Assembly: GCA_001871195.1 (NCBI GenBank)
Contig: MNXA01000008.1
Span: 1-37,758 of the forward strand
Length of the DNA stretch: 37,758 nucleotides
Direction: 5' to 3'
Origin: Zetaproteobacteria bacterium CG1_02_55_237
GTDB lineage: Bacteria; Pseudomonadota; Zetaproteobacteria; Mariprofundales; Mariprofundaceae
Below the pieces are notes generated by a model. It saw only the letters and a list, made by a program, of their open reading frames with translations, made no database searches and was not told where the DNA came from. A program made the translations under genes and the position numbers. Positions 2,798-16,059 of the stretch are shown piece after piece (position 1 is the stretch's first letter; the number at the start of each line of letters is the position of its first letter).

Positions 2798-3301
2798 TTC
2801 TCCGCCTGATTCCAGCCAGGTGAGGTAGGCGCGCACCTCGAATTCGAGCTGGTGATAGTCCGGCTCCATATTGCAGCACAGCTTGTAGAATGATTTGTCA
2901 TGTTCGGATTCTTTCATGTGGGCAAGTTCATGCACCACGATCATGCGCAGGAATTCGGGCGGCATATCCTTGAATACCGTTGCCACATGAATCTCGCGGC
3001 TGGCCTTGAGCTTCGCCCCATGCACCCGGGACTTGCTGGTGTGCATGCCGAGCGCATTGCGGGTGAGATGCAGGGTGCTGTCGAAAGCCACCTTGTTGAG
3101 CGGCCCTGCCTTGCGCAGGTGGATGTCTTTCAGCTTTATCACATAATCATAAAGCGCCTTGTCGCTGCGCACCGTATGGCTGTGCGGGTATTTCTGCAGC
3201 AGCCAGTCGCCCAGCCTGTTCTGCTCGATCATCTGTTGGATCTTCTCGGTCAGTTCGGCGGGGTAGCCGGCCAGATAATTCGTCGGTGGCTTGGGGCGCA
3301 T
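2759..3301 (-). CDS. YgjP-like (DUF45/M48-type) metallopeptidase
   Basis: Predicted zinc metallopeptidase of the YgjP/DUF45 group, about 180 residues. The HExxH motif appears as VVHELAHMKESEHDKSFYKL; the following histidine of EHDKSF is the usual third ligand. The ending PDYHQLEFEVRAYLTWLESG is typical of the family. I chose the ATG at 3301 (MRPKPPTNYLAGYP), which gives about the length of E. coli YgjP. A longer frame to 3436 exists but would translate through the terminus of the adjacent repeat element, so its first 45 codons are not credible. No signal peptide is seen, so a cytoplasmic protein is expected. The physiological substrate is not established for the family. Its 3' end is duplicated as copy A of the nearby direct repeat. 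Confidence 0.8.
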   Translation of the reverse strand: MRPKPPTNYLAGYPAELTEKIQQMIEQNRLGDWLLQKYPHSHTVRSDKALYDYVIKLKDIHLRKAGPLNKVAFDSTLHLTRNALGMHTSKSRVHGAKLKASREIHVATVFKDMPPEFLRMIVVHELAHMKESEHDKSFYKLCCNMEPDYHQLEFEVRAYLTWLESGGEPLWSPNQPPPLG

Positions 3302-11740: not shown

Positions 11741-13099
11741 ATGTTTAATCTTTCTACAGCCGATCCGGCAGACGTTGCCCGTTTTTTTGAGGCAGCCGGA
11801 GTTGGCATTATCGTTTTTGATGTTGCGGACCATTGTTCTCTGCATCTGGTGTGTACCAATGGAATCTACCGCAGCATGTACGGCATGGAGCACGAACCTG
11901 CTGCCGGCTTAAGCGTGCATGATTTCCTTTCCCCTTATATCCAGCAACACTATCTCCAGCAGTTTCAGGATTGCTGCGATAGAAGGGTTGCGGTGGATGA
12001 TGAATTCCAGCTGGACCTGCGTGGAAAGACCCTTTGGCACCGGGTGCGCATGGTTCCTGTTTTCGGGAAGGATGAGACACATATCTCGCGGGTTTTTGCA
12101 ACAAGTGTTGATATCACGCAGGAGAAGTTGCTCGAAGAGGAGCTGGGGATTGTCAGTGCCCGTCTCGAGGCGATTGTTGATTCCACCTATGACGCCATCG
12201 TTTCCATTGATAACAAGCATACCATCAACACATTTAATCAGGCGGCTGAAGACCTGTTTGACTATACCCGCGAGGAGATGGTGGGTAAAAACATGGAAGT
12301 GCTTCTGCCTCAGGCTTCCCGGCCGCAACATGCCGGGCATATCGATAATTTTGGCCAGTCGCCGTTAAAGTCCCGCCCGATGGAAGCGCGTGTGGAAGTG
12401 GCAGGCTTGCGCAGGGATGGAAGTACCTTTGCTGCCGAGGTGGCGATTGCTAAAATTAAGGTGCATGGCGAGGTGGAATACACAGCCATTATTCGTGACA
12501 TCTCGGCCCAGATGCGCCTTCTCGATGAACTCAAGCATCGTGCGAAAACCGACCCCTTAACTGGCATTGCAAACAGGCGGCATTTCTTTGAAGCGACGCG
12601 AGGGGAGATTGACCGTTGTCAGCGCTATGATCACCCCCTGTCGCTGCTGGTGCTGGATCTGGATAATTTCAAATCAATCAACGATACCTATGGTCATGCG
12701 ATTGGTGATGAGGTACTCAAGGCCTTGAGCAGGGTTCTGAAGAAGCGCTCAAGAAAACTCGATGTGCCGGCGCGTCTGGGTGGAGAAGAGTTCTGCCTGC
12801 TGATCCCCGAAACCACACTTGAGCATGCCCATGAGCTGTGCATCCGCCTGCTCGAAGATATTCGTGGCATTCATACCGCTATACCGGCGCTTGGTGAGCG
12901 GGTGGTGACCGCCAGTATTGGTCTTGCTACATATCGCAAGGGCGGGGAAGACGTCGACATGCTCGTGCAACAGGCGGATGAGGCGATGTATGCGGCAAAG
13001 CATTCAGGAAAAAACAAGGTCTGTCTGGCTGATTGCAGGGATTTGCGTCAGGGTGAAAAAGGACTGCCTGATGGGTCAGGTGACTTCTGCAGCGTGTGA
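11741..13099 (+). CDS. PAS-PAS-GGDEF diguanylate cyclase
   Basis: 452 residues, start ATG five bases after GGAGG. Residues about 10-135 form a first PAS-like sensor (FEAAGVGIIVFDVADHC through ATSVDITQEKLLEEEL), residues 140-265 a second PAS (LEAIVDSTYDAIVSIDNKHT ... YTREEMVGKNMEVLLP ... AIIRDISAQ), and 270-435 a GGDEF domain (KTDPLTGIANRRHFFEA, LDLDNFKSINDTYGHAIGDE). The active site is RLGGEEFCLL, and RKLD five residues before it is a complete RxxD inhibitory site. No membrane segment is seen, so it is a cytosolic sensor making c-di-GMP in response to an unknown signal or cofactor. It is a single gene between a sigma-54 promoter and a bidirectional terminator. Confidence 0.92.
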   Translation: MFNLSTADPADVARFFEAAGVGIIVFDVADHCSLHLVCTNGIYRSMYGMEHEPAAGLSVHDFLSPYIQQHYLQQFQDCCDRRVAVDDEFQLDLRGKTLWHRVRMVPVFGKDETHISRVFATSVDITQEKLLEEELGIVSARLEAIVDSTYDAIVSIDNKHTINTFNQAAEDLFDYTREEMVGKNMEVLLPQASRPQHAGHIDNFGQSPLKSRPMEARVEVAGLRRDGSTFAAEVAIAKIKVHGEVEYTAIIRDISAQMRLLDELKHRAKTDPLTGIANRRHFFEATRGEIDRCQRYDHPLSLLVLDLDNFKSINDTYGHAIGDEVLKALSRVLKKRSRKLDVPARLGGEEFCLLIPETTLEHAHELCIRLLEDIRGIHTAIPALGERVVTASIGLATYRKGGEDVDMLVQQADEAMYAAKHSGKNKVCLADCRDLRQGEKGLPDGSGDFCSV

Positions 13100-13121
13100 C
13101 TGCTGTCGTTCGGATGAAAGC

Positions 13122-13155
13122 AAAAGGCCCTGCACATCACATGCAGGGCCTTTTC
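13122..13155. terminator. Bidirectional terminator
   Basis: aaaaggccctgca and tgcagggccttttct form a perfect 13-bp stem with A- and T-tracts on either side, between the convergent GGDEF and EamA genes. It should serve both strands. Confidence 0.9.
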
Positions 13156-13173
13156 TTTCAGGCCGGACAGGCT

Positions 13174-14067
13174 TCACAGGCGCTGAAAAAATGCCCTGAG
13201 CCTGACGGCATGGCCGCCCGTTTCAAACAGTGCCAGACCCGAAAGGATTAGCGTCGCACCCAGCACGATCTCCATGCTCAGTGGCTCGCCATTGAACATA
13301 TTACCCAGCGCCAGGGCCGTTACCGGGGTGATCAGCGTAATCATCGCTACCCGCGTTGCCTGCCCCTTCTTCAGTACATAGTAATACAGGGCGAAACCGA
13401 GCACCGAGCCGAACAGGGCCAGATAGGCAATCGAGCCTGCGGTTCTTGCCGACACATCCACAGGCGGCCCGTTGCTGCTCAAAAACCAGGTGAGCAGAAA
13501 CAAAGGCGTGGCAATGGCCAGTCCGCCGCTGGTCAGCACAATCGCCGGCACATCAGCATTGATACGCTTGACCCATACAGCACTTGCCGAGTGGATCAGC
13601 ACAGATAGCAATACGCCGCCAATACCAAAGACCATGCGCTCATCCATATGCATGCCTGTCGCGAAGATCACCGCCAAACCTGCCAGTCCGAGAAACATGC
13701 CTGCCAGTCGCGCGGGGGTCAGTGCCTCGCCCTGCAGCCAGAGCCGTGCCATGAGTCCTGTAACCACTGGCGTGAGACCGAAGATCAATGAAATCCAGCC
13801 TGATGGGATGAACTGTGCAGCCCAGTACACGGAAAGCATGGCGCCATAGATGCCGAGACCTGCCGCCACATAGGCCTGCATGGCGCGGCGATGCCATTTC
13901 ATACCATTACCAAGCAAGGCCGCCACGATCAGCGCCAGCACGGCACCGATCGCCATGCGGCTGGTCACGCCGAATACAAAGCCGACGTCCTGACTGCTCC
14001 ACAGAATAGCCAGCGGGGTTGTGCTCCAGATCATGATTACGCCTATGTATGCCATTGGCACAGACAT
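13174..14067 (-). CDS. EamA/DMT-family transporter
   Basis: 297 residues with ten predicted transmembrane helices, arranged as two EamA repeats (about 5-135 and 145-285). Typical elements are WSTTPLAILWSSQ at the start, YWAAQFIPSGWISLIFGLTP at the end of the first repeat, and LFGSVLGFALYYYVLKKGQA in the second, with LITPVTALALGNMFNGEPLS. The start ATG at 14067 has AGAAGGAG six bases upstream; an in-frame ATG at 14106 would skip it. Family members export amino acids, purines or other small metabolites; the substrate here is unknown. The 220-bp leader contains two terminator-like hairpins and a short ORF, suggesting attenuation control. Confidence 0.88.
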   Translation of the reverse strand: MSVPMAYIGVIMIWSTTPLAILWSSQDVGFVFGVTSRMAIGAVLALIVAALLGNGMKWHRRAMQAYVAAGLGIYGAMLSVYWAAQFIPSGWISLIFGLTPVVTGLMARLWLQGEALTPARLAGMFLGLAGLAVIFATGMHMDERMVFGIGGVLLSVLIHSASAVWVKRINADVPAIVLTSGGLAIATPLFLLTWFLSSNGPPVDVSARTAGSIAYLALFGSVLGFALYYYVLKKGQATRVAMITLITPVTALALGNMFNGEPLSMEIVLGATLILSGLALFETGGHAVRLRAFFQRL

Positions 14068-14109
14068 CTTAATCTCCTTCTCTCCTTTCTTTGATGGTAG
14101 AGCCAAACA

Positions 14110-14147
14110 AAAACGGCCACGGATTCGCTTGAACCCATGGCCGTTTT
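14110..14147 (-). terminator. Terminator/attenuator hairpin in the EamA leader
   Basis: On the minus strand aaaacggcca pairs with tggccgtttt, and the stem continues past one mismatch through gggttc and gaatcc to a small loop; TTTTTGTTTGG follows. The hairpin ends 42 bp before the EamA start codon, in its own leader, where read-through would be needed for expression. Confidence 0.75.
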
Positions 14148-14154
14148 GAAAAAT

Positions 14155-14181
14155 CCGATCGTCAGCTTTTGCTTACATCGG
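14155..14181 (-). promoter_or_regulatory. Second leader hairpin followed by a T-tract
   Basis: The minus strand reads ccgatgtaagc-aaaa-gctgacgatcgg, a stem of about 10 bp with a bulge and an A4 loop, followed by ATTTTTC. It lies immediately upstream of the stronger hairpin at 14110-14147 and contains the stop codon of the possible 38-codon leader ORF. The arrangement is attenuator-like. Confidence 0.5.
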
Positions 14182-14289
14182 AACGCTTATCACAACGCAT
14201 GGGCACAGGGGTAGGGCTCGTTTGACCGGAAGCCAGACGATAGCTCGAACCATTTTGTGTGCGGGCTGCGTATACATGGTGCGAATCAT
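14173..14289 (-). CDS. Possible 38-residue leader peptide
   Basis: A short frame starts MIRTMYTQPAHKMVRAIVW and ends with LCPCVVISVPM, its TAA lying inside the first leader hairpin. It is basic, contains one tryptophan and a CPC pair, and has no run of one regulatory amino acid. No good Shine-Dalgarno precedes it. TTGACA at about 14308-14313 on the minus strand could be part of a promoter. It is antisense to the extended upstream frame of the HD-GYP gene. Its reality rests on position only: a short ORF whose stop overlaps a hairpin ahead of a transporter gene. Confidence 0.35.
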   Translation of the reverse strand: MIRTMYTQPAHKMVRAIVWLPVKRALPLCPCVVISVPM

Positions 14290-14396
14290 GGTGGGCAGGC
14301 AAGGGATGTCAACGTATCTGCTTGTCACTGCGTTGGATTGACGCAGCAGCTATTGCCGCCGTCTACCGGCAAGAAAAAAGATTCCAGCTAAAGTTT

Positions 14397-15584
14397 ATGG
14401 TCCGGCAAGCGATAGTTTCTAATTGGTGGTTATCTGTAAGCAAGGGGGTGAGTGTGCTCAGCAGTCAGATTGAACAGATTCACTACAACCTGAATGAGTC
14501 GTTTCCGGGGCTCTGCCGGATATCTATTGCGATCTATGATAAAAATACCGATATGCTCAAGACCTTCACGCAAAGCAACCAGGGAGCTGTGCCGATTCAG
14601 TACTACTCAAGCAGACTGAACAAATCGGAATCACTTTCCAGGCTGGTGGAGGAAAGAAGCACCAGGGTTATCGACGATATTACCTTGCTTAATGAAGACC
14701 AATATCACACAAAGAAAATAAAGGACGCCGGCTACCGATCCAGCCTGACTTATCCGATTTATAACCGGGATACGTTTATCGGCATTCTCTTTATGAATGC
14801 AAAGGAGATTGGTTTTTTCAGTGAGGCGATTGTTAAACGACTTTCCATCTTCATTCACCTGATTTCCACCTTGCTGATAGCGGAGACACAGCCGATTAAA
14901 ACATTGAACGGGGCGGTGGCCACGGCACGTGAATTCAGCCGCATCAAGGATGAGGAAACCGGCGCCCATCTGGCCAGGATGTCCCACTATTCGCGCGTTA
15001 TCGCCTTGGCCATCGCCGAGCTGCATGATCTGAATGATGAGGCGATTGAGTACATATTCCAGTTTTCGCCATTGCACGATGTCGGCAAGGTGGGCATACC
15101 GGACTCGATTATTCTCAAGCCGGGAGCCTTAAGCGATGCCGAGAGGCGAATGATCCAAACCCATGTATCCATCGGGGAAAGCATCATTCATACCATGGTG
15201 GACAGGTTTGATCTTGGTGCTGTTTCAAACGTGCAGATGCTGCGCAATATCGTTACTTATCACCATGAGCTCTATGATGGTTCCGGCTATCTGCGGGGCC
15301 TCAAGGGCGATGAGATTCCCATCGAAGCCAGAATCACCACCGTTGCCGATGTGTTTGATGCGTTAACGACCAAGCGTTCGTACAAGCCAGCCTGGAGCAA
15401 TGCTGATGCATTCATGTTCCTCGAAGACAATAAGGGGATAAAATTTGATCCGGACTGTGTCGATGCGCTGGTCAATAATGCCGAGCTGGTCGAGGCAATT
15501 CAGAATCGTTTTCAGGAAGATATGCCGGGAGATAGGGGCGGCCTGCCCGAATCAGATCTGCAGCTCCGGCTTGTCGCGTCATAG
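14397..15584 (+). CDS. GAF/HD-GYP c-di-GMP phosphodiesterase-like protein
   Basis: About 395 residues from the ATG at 14397. GTG at 14448 or 14454 behind AAGGGGG is an alternative start, and the frame upstream to 14259 looks non-coding. The N-terminal 160 residues resemble a GAF sensor (LCRISIAIYDKNTDMLKTFT ... YRSSLTYPIYNRDTFIGILF). The HD-GYP domain has HDVGKVGIPDSIILKPG (HD), THVSIGESII, a second histidine pair YHHELYDGSGY, and ARITTVADVFDALTTKRSYK. The GYP triplet is GYL in YDGSGYLRGLKGDEIP. Metal-binding histidines and aspartates are retained, so c-di-GMP hydrolysis is likely but not certain. It is monocistronic. Confidence 0.85.
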   Translation: MVRQAIVSNWWLSVSKGVSVLSSQIEQIHYNLNESFPGLCRISIAIYDKNTDMLKTFTQSNQGAVPIQYYSSRLNKSESLSRLVEERSTRVIDDITLLNEDQYHTKKIKDAGYRSSLTYPIYNRDTFIGILFMNAKEIGFFSEAIVKRLSIFIHLISTLLIAETQPIKTLNGAVATAREFSRIKDEETGAHLARMSHYSRVIALAIAELHDLNDEAIEYIFQFSPLHDVGKVGIPDSIILKPGALSDAERRMIQTHVSIGESIIHTMVDRFDLGAVSNVQMLRNIVTYHHELYDGSGYLRGLKGDEIPIEARITTVADVFDALTTKRSYKPAWSNADAFMFLEDNKGIKFDPDCVDALVNNAELVEAIQNRFQEDMPGDRGGLPESDLQLRLVAS

Positions 15585-15606
15585 TCAGCTGATTTATTCC
15601 GTGAAC

Positions 15607-15650
15607 AAAAAAAGGCCTGCCATCCGGGGGAGGGAAGAATGGCAGGCCTT
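15607..15650 (-). terminator. Rho-independent terminator of 6S RNA
   Basis: On the minus strand aaggcctgccat pairs with atggcaggcctt across a C-rich loop, followed by seven T. It lies about 30-60 bp downstream of the 6S RNA fold on the same strand. The T-tract shows the direction is minus, not that of the HD-GYP gene. Confidence 0.85.
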
Positions 15651-15664
15651 GGGGGCTTCTTTGG

Positions 15665-15850
15665 CAGCGATCTAACGCTGCACTGGCGTTATGACCTATT
15701 GTGAACTGAACCCTTCAAGCGAAGGTGGGCGCCGCATCCTGGCATCAGGTATCCCGATGAGGGGACACACACAACCACGATAGACCAAGCTCCCGTTCAG
15801 AACGCATCGGCTCAGACAAATAGGTCACAACGCCAGTGCAACGAAACTTT
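15665..15850 (-). ncRNA. ssrS: 6S RNA
   Basis: A long-range stem closes the region: tgcactggcgttatgacctatt (15679-15700) pairs with aataggtcacaacgccagtg (15819-15838) with one mismatch. Read on the minus strand, the interior has landmarks of proteobacterial 6S RNA: CTGAGCCGATG on the 5' side, GCGGCGCCCACCTT, and CTTGAAGGGTTCAG on the 3' side, comparable to the CACCUUGAACC..GGGUUCAAGGGUU region of E. coli. A terminator follows and a CATAAT box lies about 30 bp upstream. 6S RNA mimics an open promoter and sequesters sigma-70 RNA polymerase in stationary phase. Exact ends are estimates. No ygfA/fau homolog is adjacent. Confidence 0.8.
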
Positions 15851-16059
15851 CTCGTCTATGTGGATACATTATGACATGGTGGAAATTGATTTGGAAGGGT
15901 TTATTTACACCCTTGCGGAGCGCCTGTGATTTTTCTCCAACGTGGCCCCGTAGCCCGCTATTGCACGCAGAAGACCGCATAACAGGGCTTGAATTTCGCG
16001 CCGATAAATATTGAAGATTTTCGTTTGCGTTCAGTTTTCAGTTGTGATTAACTCCCTCG

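Follow-up and report, generated by a model that had tools for sequence, protein, structure and literature searches.

A conserved leader upstream of an EamA-type transporter gene in Mariprofundaceae is likely a ribosome-mediated transcription attenuator

In a marine relative of iron-oxidising bacteria, the leader of an EamA-type transporter gene is likely to be a ribosome-mediated transcription attenuator, as judged from sequence comparison and folding models. Within the window (the whole 37,758-nt stretch of DNA that was analysed, from Zetaproteobacteria bacterium CG1_02_55_237), the leader occupies the minus strand between a TTGACA box at 14312 and the end of an intrinsic terminator at 14106. 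The gene that follows (13174–14067 (−)) encodes a 297-aa protein and has its own Shine-Dalgarno-like AAGGAG; a PF00892 match and an ATG at 14067 bear out its earlier identification as an EamA transporter. Matches of the protein in NCBIfam are sub-threshold only (best 2A78, 58.7 bits with a cut-off of 230, then YddG, 47.5 bits with a cut-off of 300), and no solved relative was found by sequence (best E 0.11). Beside the leader, a divergent plus-strand gene encodes an HD domain with a sub-threshold GAF match. The genes 3′ of EamA differ in size and strand between genomes, as judged from ORF positions, and were for this reason dropped as a source of hints on the substrate.

Alignment of the leaders of orthologous transporters, a check proposed in the sequence-only reading of the window, revealed that the leader is conserved and that its ORF is apparently under coding selection. 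The leader is present at 16 of the 17 full-length EamA orthologues at least 60% identical to the window protein (L002–L016 and L018, the window itself being counted), and is missing from Mariprofundus erugo (L017, G038) though EamA is present there. A covariance model built from the 16-leader alignment found the leader in 20 of 74 Mariprofundaceae genomes, once per genome, a 21st match (L057, in G020) being the antisense of the terminator palindrome. In all 20 genomes the gene that follows it is EamA, in the same orientation (in G035 the EamA match covers its first 77 residues only), and most of the neighbours on its other side are not shared, the biggest common cluster comprising 4 of 20. A search of 78 genomes of the class, including the 74, returned no further leaders and none away from EamA, with filters that lose some weak matches. 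The model matched none of 13 more distant EamA loci of the family (L019–L031), and further such genes (L104–L109) have no terminator upstream; L019 and L024, flagged by a looser pipeline, look by eye like false positives, an upstream gene of the usual kind ending in its terminator. A 6S RNA (RF00013, 54.3 bits) is found near the leader at 15671–15847 (−) of the window, with sub-threshold matches (36.6–39.8 bits) in L043 (767–924 (+)), L044 (2911–3068 (−)) and L049 (2884–3048 (−)), and its presence near the EamA leader in four genomes suggests an old neighbourhood. A DUF805 RNA (RF03081, 79.4 bits) lies near the EamA locus of G005 (L052, 512–581 (−)), and L047 has at its edge (2912–3162 (−)) a match to the cspA thermoregulator (RF01766, 115.4 bits).

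The predicted leader promoter is sigma70-like. Its −35 box TTGACA (14307–14312 (−)), singled out earlier from the window alone, is above chance, with TTGAC kept in 19 of 20 homologues and TTGCA in one, and is followed after a 16-bp spacer by the −10 box CATGAT (14285–14290 (−)). An xAnnnT hexamer occupies this position, 16 bp after the −35 box, in all 20 loci; the −35 box begins 34–37 nt 5′ of the leader ATG and the hexamer ends 6–9 nt before it. This places the leader ATG at the expected transcription start, and the leader ORF is therefore probably leaderless, with its ATG at the predicted start. The 38-codon ORF previously proposed here survives as a short ORF but not in its start: the ATG chosen for it falls inside the −10 hexamer, which rules out translation from it with this promoter, and it is the ATG at 14277 that is conserved as start. 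Many loci carry a G+C-rich stretch between the −10 box and the start (14278–14284 (−) in the window), a feature known from growth-rate-controlled promoters.

The leader ORF, MYTQPAHKMVRAIVWLPVKRALPLCPCVVISVPM (34 codons plus stop, 14173–14277 (−)), begins at the next in-frame ATG after the one first proposed; leader peptides of the 20 loci are 29–34 aa long. By these comparative tests codons 2–20 are under coding selection. Across 19 of the 20 loci (L056 was excluded, as was one inserted codon of L048) they contain no stops, their BLOSUM score is 0.91 versus −0.27 ± 0.27 in column shuffles (0/1000 as good), and the synonymous fraction is 0.26 versus 0.15 (0/1000); conservation is lowest at third positions and replacements are conservative. 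In the same test on 16 loci, with three columns of the L015 insertion removed, 0/2000 and 9/2000 shuffles reach the two scores. Such selection is what would be expected of the translated ORF of an attenuator. One Trp codon is shared by all 20 loci; Leu comes next in 19 of them, and Arg stands five codons on in 18. The Mariprofundaceae ORFs contain no run of a single control codon, having one Trp codon each (20/20), and thus lack the several codons for one amino acid that mark the leader of an amino-acid operon. Arg is not enriched in the Mariprofundaceae peptides (fraction 0.103 versus 0.106, with the near-duplicate L043 and one of two gammaproteobacterial loci with identical peptides dropped from the composition test). 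The last codons behave differently. The nucleotides of a CCYGTG stretch are kept there while being read in frames 2, 0 and 1 in 15, 4 and 1 loci, respectively, and the ORF is open through the stretch in 20/20; on this comparison the last codons are conserved as RNA, unlike the protein-like codons 2–20.

The intrinsic terminator (14106–14147 (−)) is a 17-bp hairpin with a loop of 4 and a T tract, whose 5′ arm ACGGCCATGGGTT (14144–14132) is termed region 3 and whose 3′ arm is region 4. For the 98-nt region that holds the hairpin, the folding energy is −43.7 kcal/mol versus −24.5 ± 3.3 for shuffles (z −5.8), and a hairpin with a T tract is found upstream of EamA in 20/20 loci, so that an intrinsic terminator precedes the putatively regulated gene, as in leader-peptide attenuators. 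The stronger hairpin with a T tract that had been noticed near the transporter is thus confirmed. The distance from terminator to EamA ATG is 41 nt in the window, counted from the T tract, and 34 nt in G007, which would leave little room for another promoter. Over 16 loci the spacing ranges from 34 to 156 nt. The spacers of L037, L045 and L053 (144–156 nt) contain DNA that looks repeat-like by eye (e.g. ACCACGAAGGCACAGAG in L037), suggesting that the stretch 3′ of the terminator tolerates insertions. As for the terminator itself, an origin as an uptake sequence or repeat was rejected: among 13 genome matches, those with fewer than 3 mismatches are only the terminator, on both strands.

A second hairpin, which overlaps the stop codon (14154–14182 (−)), is strong in the window, as had been reported, but is not conserved across homologues: the spacer that contains it has a mean folding z of −0.76 versus shuffles in 20 homologues. 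With folding barely beyond that of shuffles, this region offers no conserved second terminator, and the idea of tandem terminator-like stems in the leader has to be given up for want of a conserved first stem.

The antiterminator strand is predicted to lie in the last codons. Region 2 (14191–14209 (−), with CCTGTG at 14209–14204) contains the CCYGTG(c)GCCG stretch, which is complementary to the terminator 5′ arm ACGGCCAYGGGTT; in the window the best duplex segment (14205–14191) has an energy of −16.6 kcal/mol. Over the loci the 2:3 duplex has a mean energy of about −14.6 kcal/mol, at the optimum of the offset profile, and 127 of 140 cells are paired, compared with at most 50% in slid versions. 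The best site for the terminator arm is near the stop codon in 15/20 loci versus 8.4 ± 2.2 in shuffles (0/300 as high) and elsewhere in 5/20. Locus by locus, shuffled leaders often pair with the arm just as well as the real one, duplexes as low being found in 159/300 shuffles for L045, 114/300 for L056 and 108/300 for L048. The covariation that had been suggested as a check was found in part. A hairpin that encloses the invariant TGG codon within the ORF (14218–14241 (−)) covaries, with GC, UA and CG at one pair, whereas the 2:3 pairing has no compensatory double changes, column make-up alone giving the same score (435/500 shuffles); its support is therefore conservation across reading frames rather than covariation. 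The complementarity would also explain the constant sequence of the terminator arm. With moderate support, region 1 (GCACA, codons 6–7, 14258–14262 (−)) may act as an anti-antiterminator by pairing with UGUGC of region 2; it is the best upstream window, with 85% of cells paired in 16 loci. Another candidate antiterminator in the ORF, GTGGCC, was rejected as it occurs only in part of the loci and forms a weaker second duplex peak; it is nevertheless the best duplex in L037, L038 and L040.

How a ribosome would affect the pairing was modelled for the 20 loci by partition function, with the RNA taken up to the terminator loop and the ribosome footprint masked. The mean 2:3 probability is 0.68 when the footprint lies five codons 5′ of Trp, 0.61 when Trp occupies the A site (at least 0.5 in 15/20 loci, below 0.5 in 5/20) and 0.62 four codons after Trp, and falls to 0.01 with the ribosome on region 2. 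A ribosome at the stop codon gives 0.16 and an RNA free of ribosomes 0.41, 2:3 being predicted in the latter state in 11/20 loci including the window (0.89). Complementarity and folding together point to an antiterminator that would be exclusive with the terminator and exposed or masked by the ribosome, a halted ribosome being predicted to switch the gene on and a running one to switch it off.

Our results suggest the following mechanism for the EamA leader. Transcription would start at or beside the ATG of the leaderless ORF. A ribosome running smoothly would cover region 2 in the last codons, allowing the terminator 3:4 to form and keeping EamA off, while a ribosome halted in roughly the first 19 codons would leave region 2 free to pair with region 3, with readthrough into EamA as the consequence. 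In four of 20 loci (G000, G001, G005 and G104) a ribosome at the stop codon leaves region 2 free, the window being among them (0.69), where the OFF state would thus depend on a ribosome positioned within the last codons. The conserved promoter, the coding selection, the 2:3 complementarity, the terminator and the linkage to EamA are read directly from the aligned genomes; from them we infer that the ORF is translated, that termination occurs and is conditional, and in which direction control would act. Of the two modes of control first envisaged for this leader, the coding selection, the RNA-level antiterminator and the linkage to EamA in 20/20 loci favour control through translation of the small ORF.

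Many of the EamA genes examined in Gammaproteobacteria have a leader of the same plan, a likeness in layout. A Thalassolituus EamA gene (L036) also has a terminator just upstream, and the search was extended from it through genus, family and order. A terminator with a 14–50-codon ATG ORF ending at it is found at 41 of 58 distinct gammaproteobacterial EamA loci, a count that is not a rate for the class since only the best-scoring places were fetched (the best 30 of 82 at order level and the best 30 at family level). Duplicates were dropped (L144 of L139, L165 of L113), and the longest ATG ORF was taken, although some loci (e.g. L140 and L157) look better in another frame. The plan occurs at 3/58 loci on the other strand and in 0/57 windows 450–850 nt upstream, the latter being a lenient control because these windows are probably mostly coding. 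The best complement to the terminator arm is near the stop codon in 28/41 loci versus 14.8 ± 2.9 in shuffles (0/300), but the pairing at an individual locus often does not exceed that of shuffles. The gammaproteobacterial peptides are rich in Arg (fraction 0.176 versus 0.111, z 6.2), and WLRR, found in those of L137 and L141–L143 and in shorter ORFs of L140, recalls WLVARR of Mariprofundaceae. Nine EamA loci at phylum level, from eight genomes (L095–L103), are without the leader plan. Arg-rich ORFs and terminators upstream of EamA recur through the Thalassolituus group (L111–L119, L123–L132, L135 and L136), most with a GGCCGC core, and L133, L134 and L139 are without such a leader; the group's leaders are a good second system for testing. 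No Rfam family reaches threshold in 18 gammaproteobacterial loci; a sub-threshold Thr_leader match in L172 (2531–2601 (−), 31.7 bits with a cut-off of 55, E 0.058) overlaps the terminator and ORF end of that leader.

As to what would halt the ribosome, our leading guess, held tentatively, is slowed translation, caused by a ribosome-acting compound or by general translation stress, a trigger that would suit a drug or metabolite exporter. Shortage of a single amino acid, which would be Trp for Mariprofundaceae and Arg for the gammaproteobacterial leaders, is a possible though rather unlikely trigger, and joint action of the nascent peptide with a particular small molecule is an improbable one. 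It is similarly doubtful, if conceivable, that these leaders form, in Mariprofundaceae and Gammaproteobacteria, a widespread, undescribed attenuator family of the EamA clade, in which a sensor peptide (Trp then Arg in Mariprofundaceae, Arg-rich elsewhere) and the exported molecule together stall the ribosome and so open transcription of the exporter. The exporter probably responds to the very compound or stress by which the leader ribosome is stalled, and a reporter built on the leader could then reveal the substrate or signal. The leader thereby offers a testable control circuit for a group of uncharacterised exporters.

The rival explanation that survives best, with a low probability, is that the leader is an independent small gene, for a small protein or a terminator-ended small RNA of about 170 nt, with EamA transcribed from elsewhere. 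The leader is indeed a complete unit with its own promoter and strong terminator, its spacing to EamA is variable with repeat-like inserts by eye in some spacers, and a released leader RNA could act in trans, as described for rnTrpL of S. meliloti in the part of the source available (PMC7298713). Against it stand the complementarity of the last codons to the terminator arm and the recurrence of the leader plan before EamA in Gammaproteobacteria; moreover, the far-side neighbours change, the class search detected no copy away from EamA within the limits of its filters, and the shortest spacers have little room for an EamA promoter. A riboswitch that binds a ligand and contains the ORF only by coincidence, the other mode of control envisaged at the outset, is very improbable. 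A conserved hairpin with compensatory changes and the possible 1:2 pairing could belong to one, but they are also the whole of the conserved RNA structure beyond the terminator, the ORF is under apparent coding selection, and by eye there is no conserved unpaired core apart from sequence explained by codons or by 2:3. Rfam yields no match to the window leader at E ≤ 5 and none to the leaders of the 20 Mariprofundaceae loci at E ≤ 0.5 (matches lie outside the leader only), in agreement with the first impression that the window leader matches no familiar riboswitch class. That the features arose by chance in the divergent promoter region of the HD-domain gene on the other strand has a negligible probability: simple scans of 12500–16000 are not above shuffles (one promoter, with the −35 box of the leader, versus 3.0 expected; three terminators versus 2.6, the main terminator not among them), but a leader kept in 20 genomes with mostly different upstream neighbours already contradicts it.

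The ribosome-mediated attenuator resembles those of the trp and his type in having exclusive pairings chosen by ribosome position. It differs from them in lacking a run of control codons and in preceding a transporter gene rather than a biosynthetic operon. TnaC, likewise a short leader peptide with a conserved Trp, is Rho-dependent and of other sequence, and serves as an analogy only. Descent from a trp attenuator was considered and rejected: in five genomes trpE has an opposite-strand tRNA-Ala within about 200 nt upstream and, by eye, no leader of the EamA type. Among the matches listed from the open-licence literature, none reports a leader-peptide attenuator of EamA or attenuators in Mariprofundus, and the terms EamA, DUF6 and Mariprofundus are absent from the main text of a 2010 survey of premature terminators (PMC2965389). 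The predicted start of the transcript at the leader ATG has a parallel in trpL of Sinorhizobium meliloti, whose leader ORF is leaderless, its ATG forming the 5′ end of the transcript, according to the available passages of PMC7298713; if the start maps as predicted, the EamA leader would add one more leaderless leader ORF to the few known. In the toiL uORF of E. coli topAI, which senses ribosomes stalled by several drug classes, a short ORF is likewise present, but toiL acts on the ribosome-binding site and Rho, whereas the EamA leader has an intrinsic terminator (PMC12121999, excerpts). The BmrB leader of bmrCD in Bacillus subtilis is comparable in plan as a short ORF with terminator and antiterminator before a transporter gene: in the accessible sections of PMC4191407, the ORF's own sequence forms the alternative structures, its translation decides termination, and stalling of the ribosome is the proposed cause of readthrough. 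There the multidrug transporter is of the ABC type, the ORF has 53 aa, the terminator lies inside the coding region, and induction by antibiotics was shown by experiment. The EamA leader would accordingly be a fresh case of a known attenuator mechanism.
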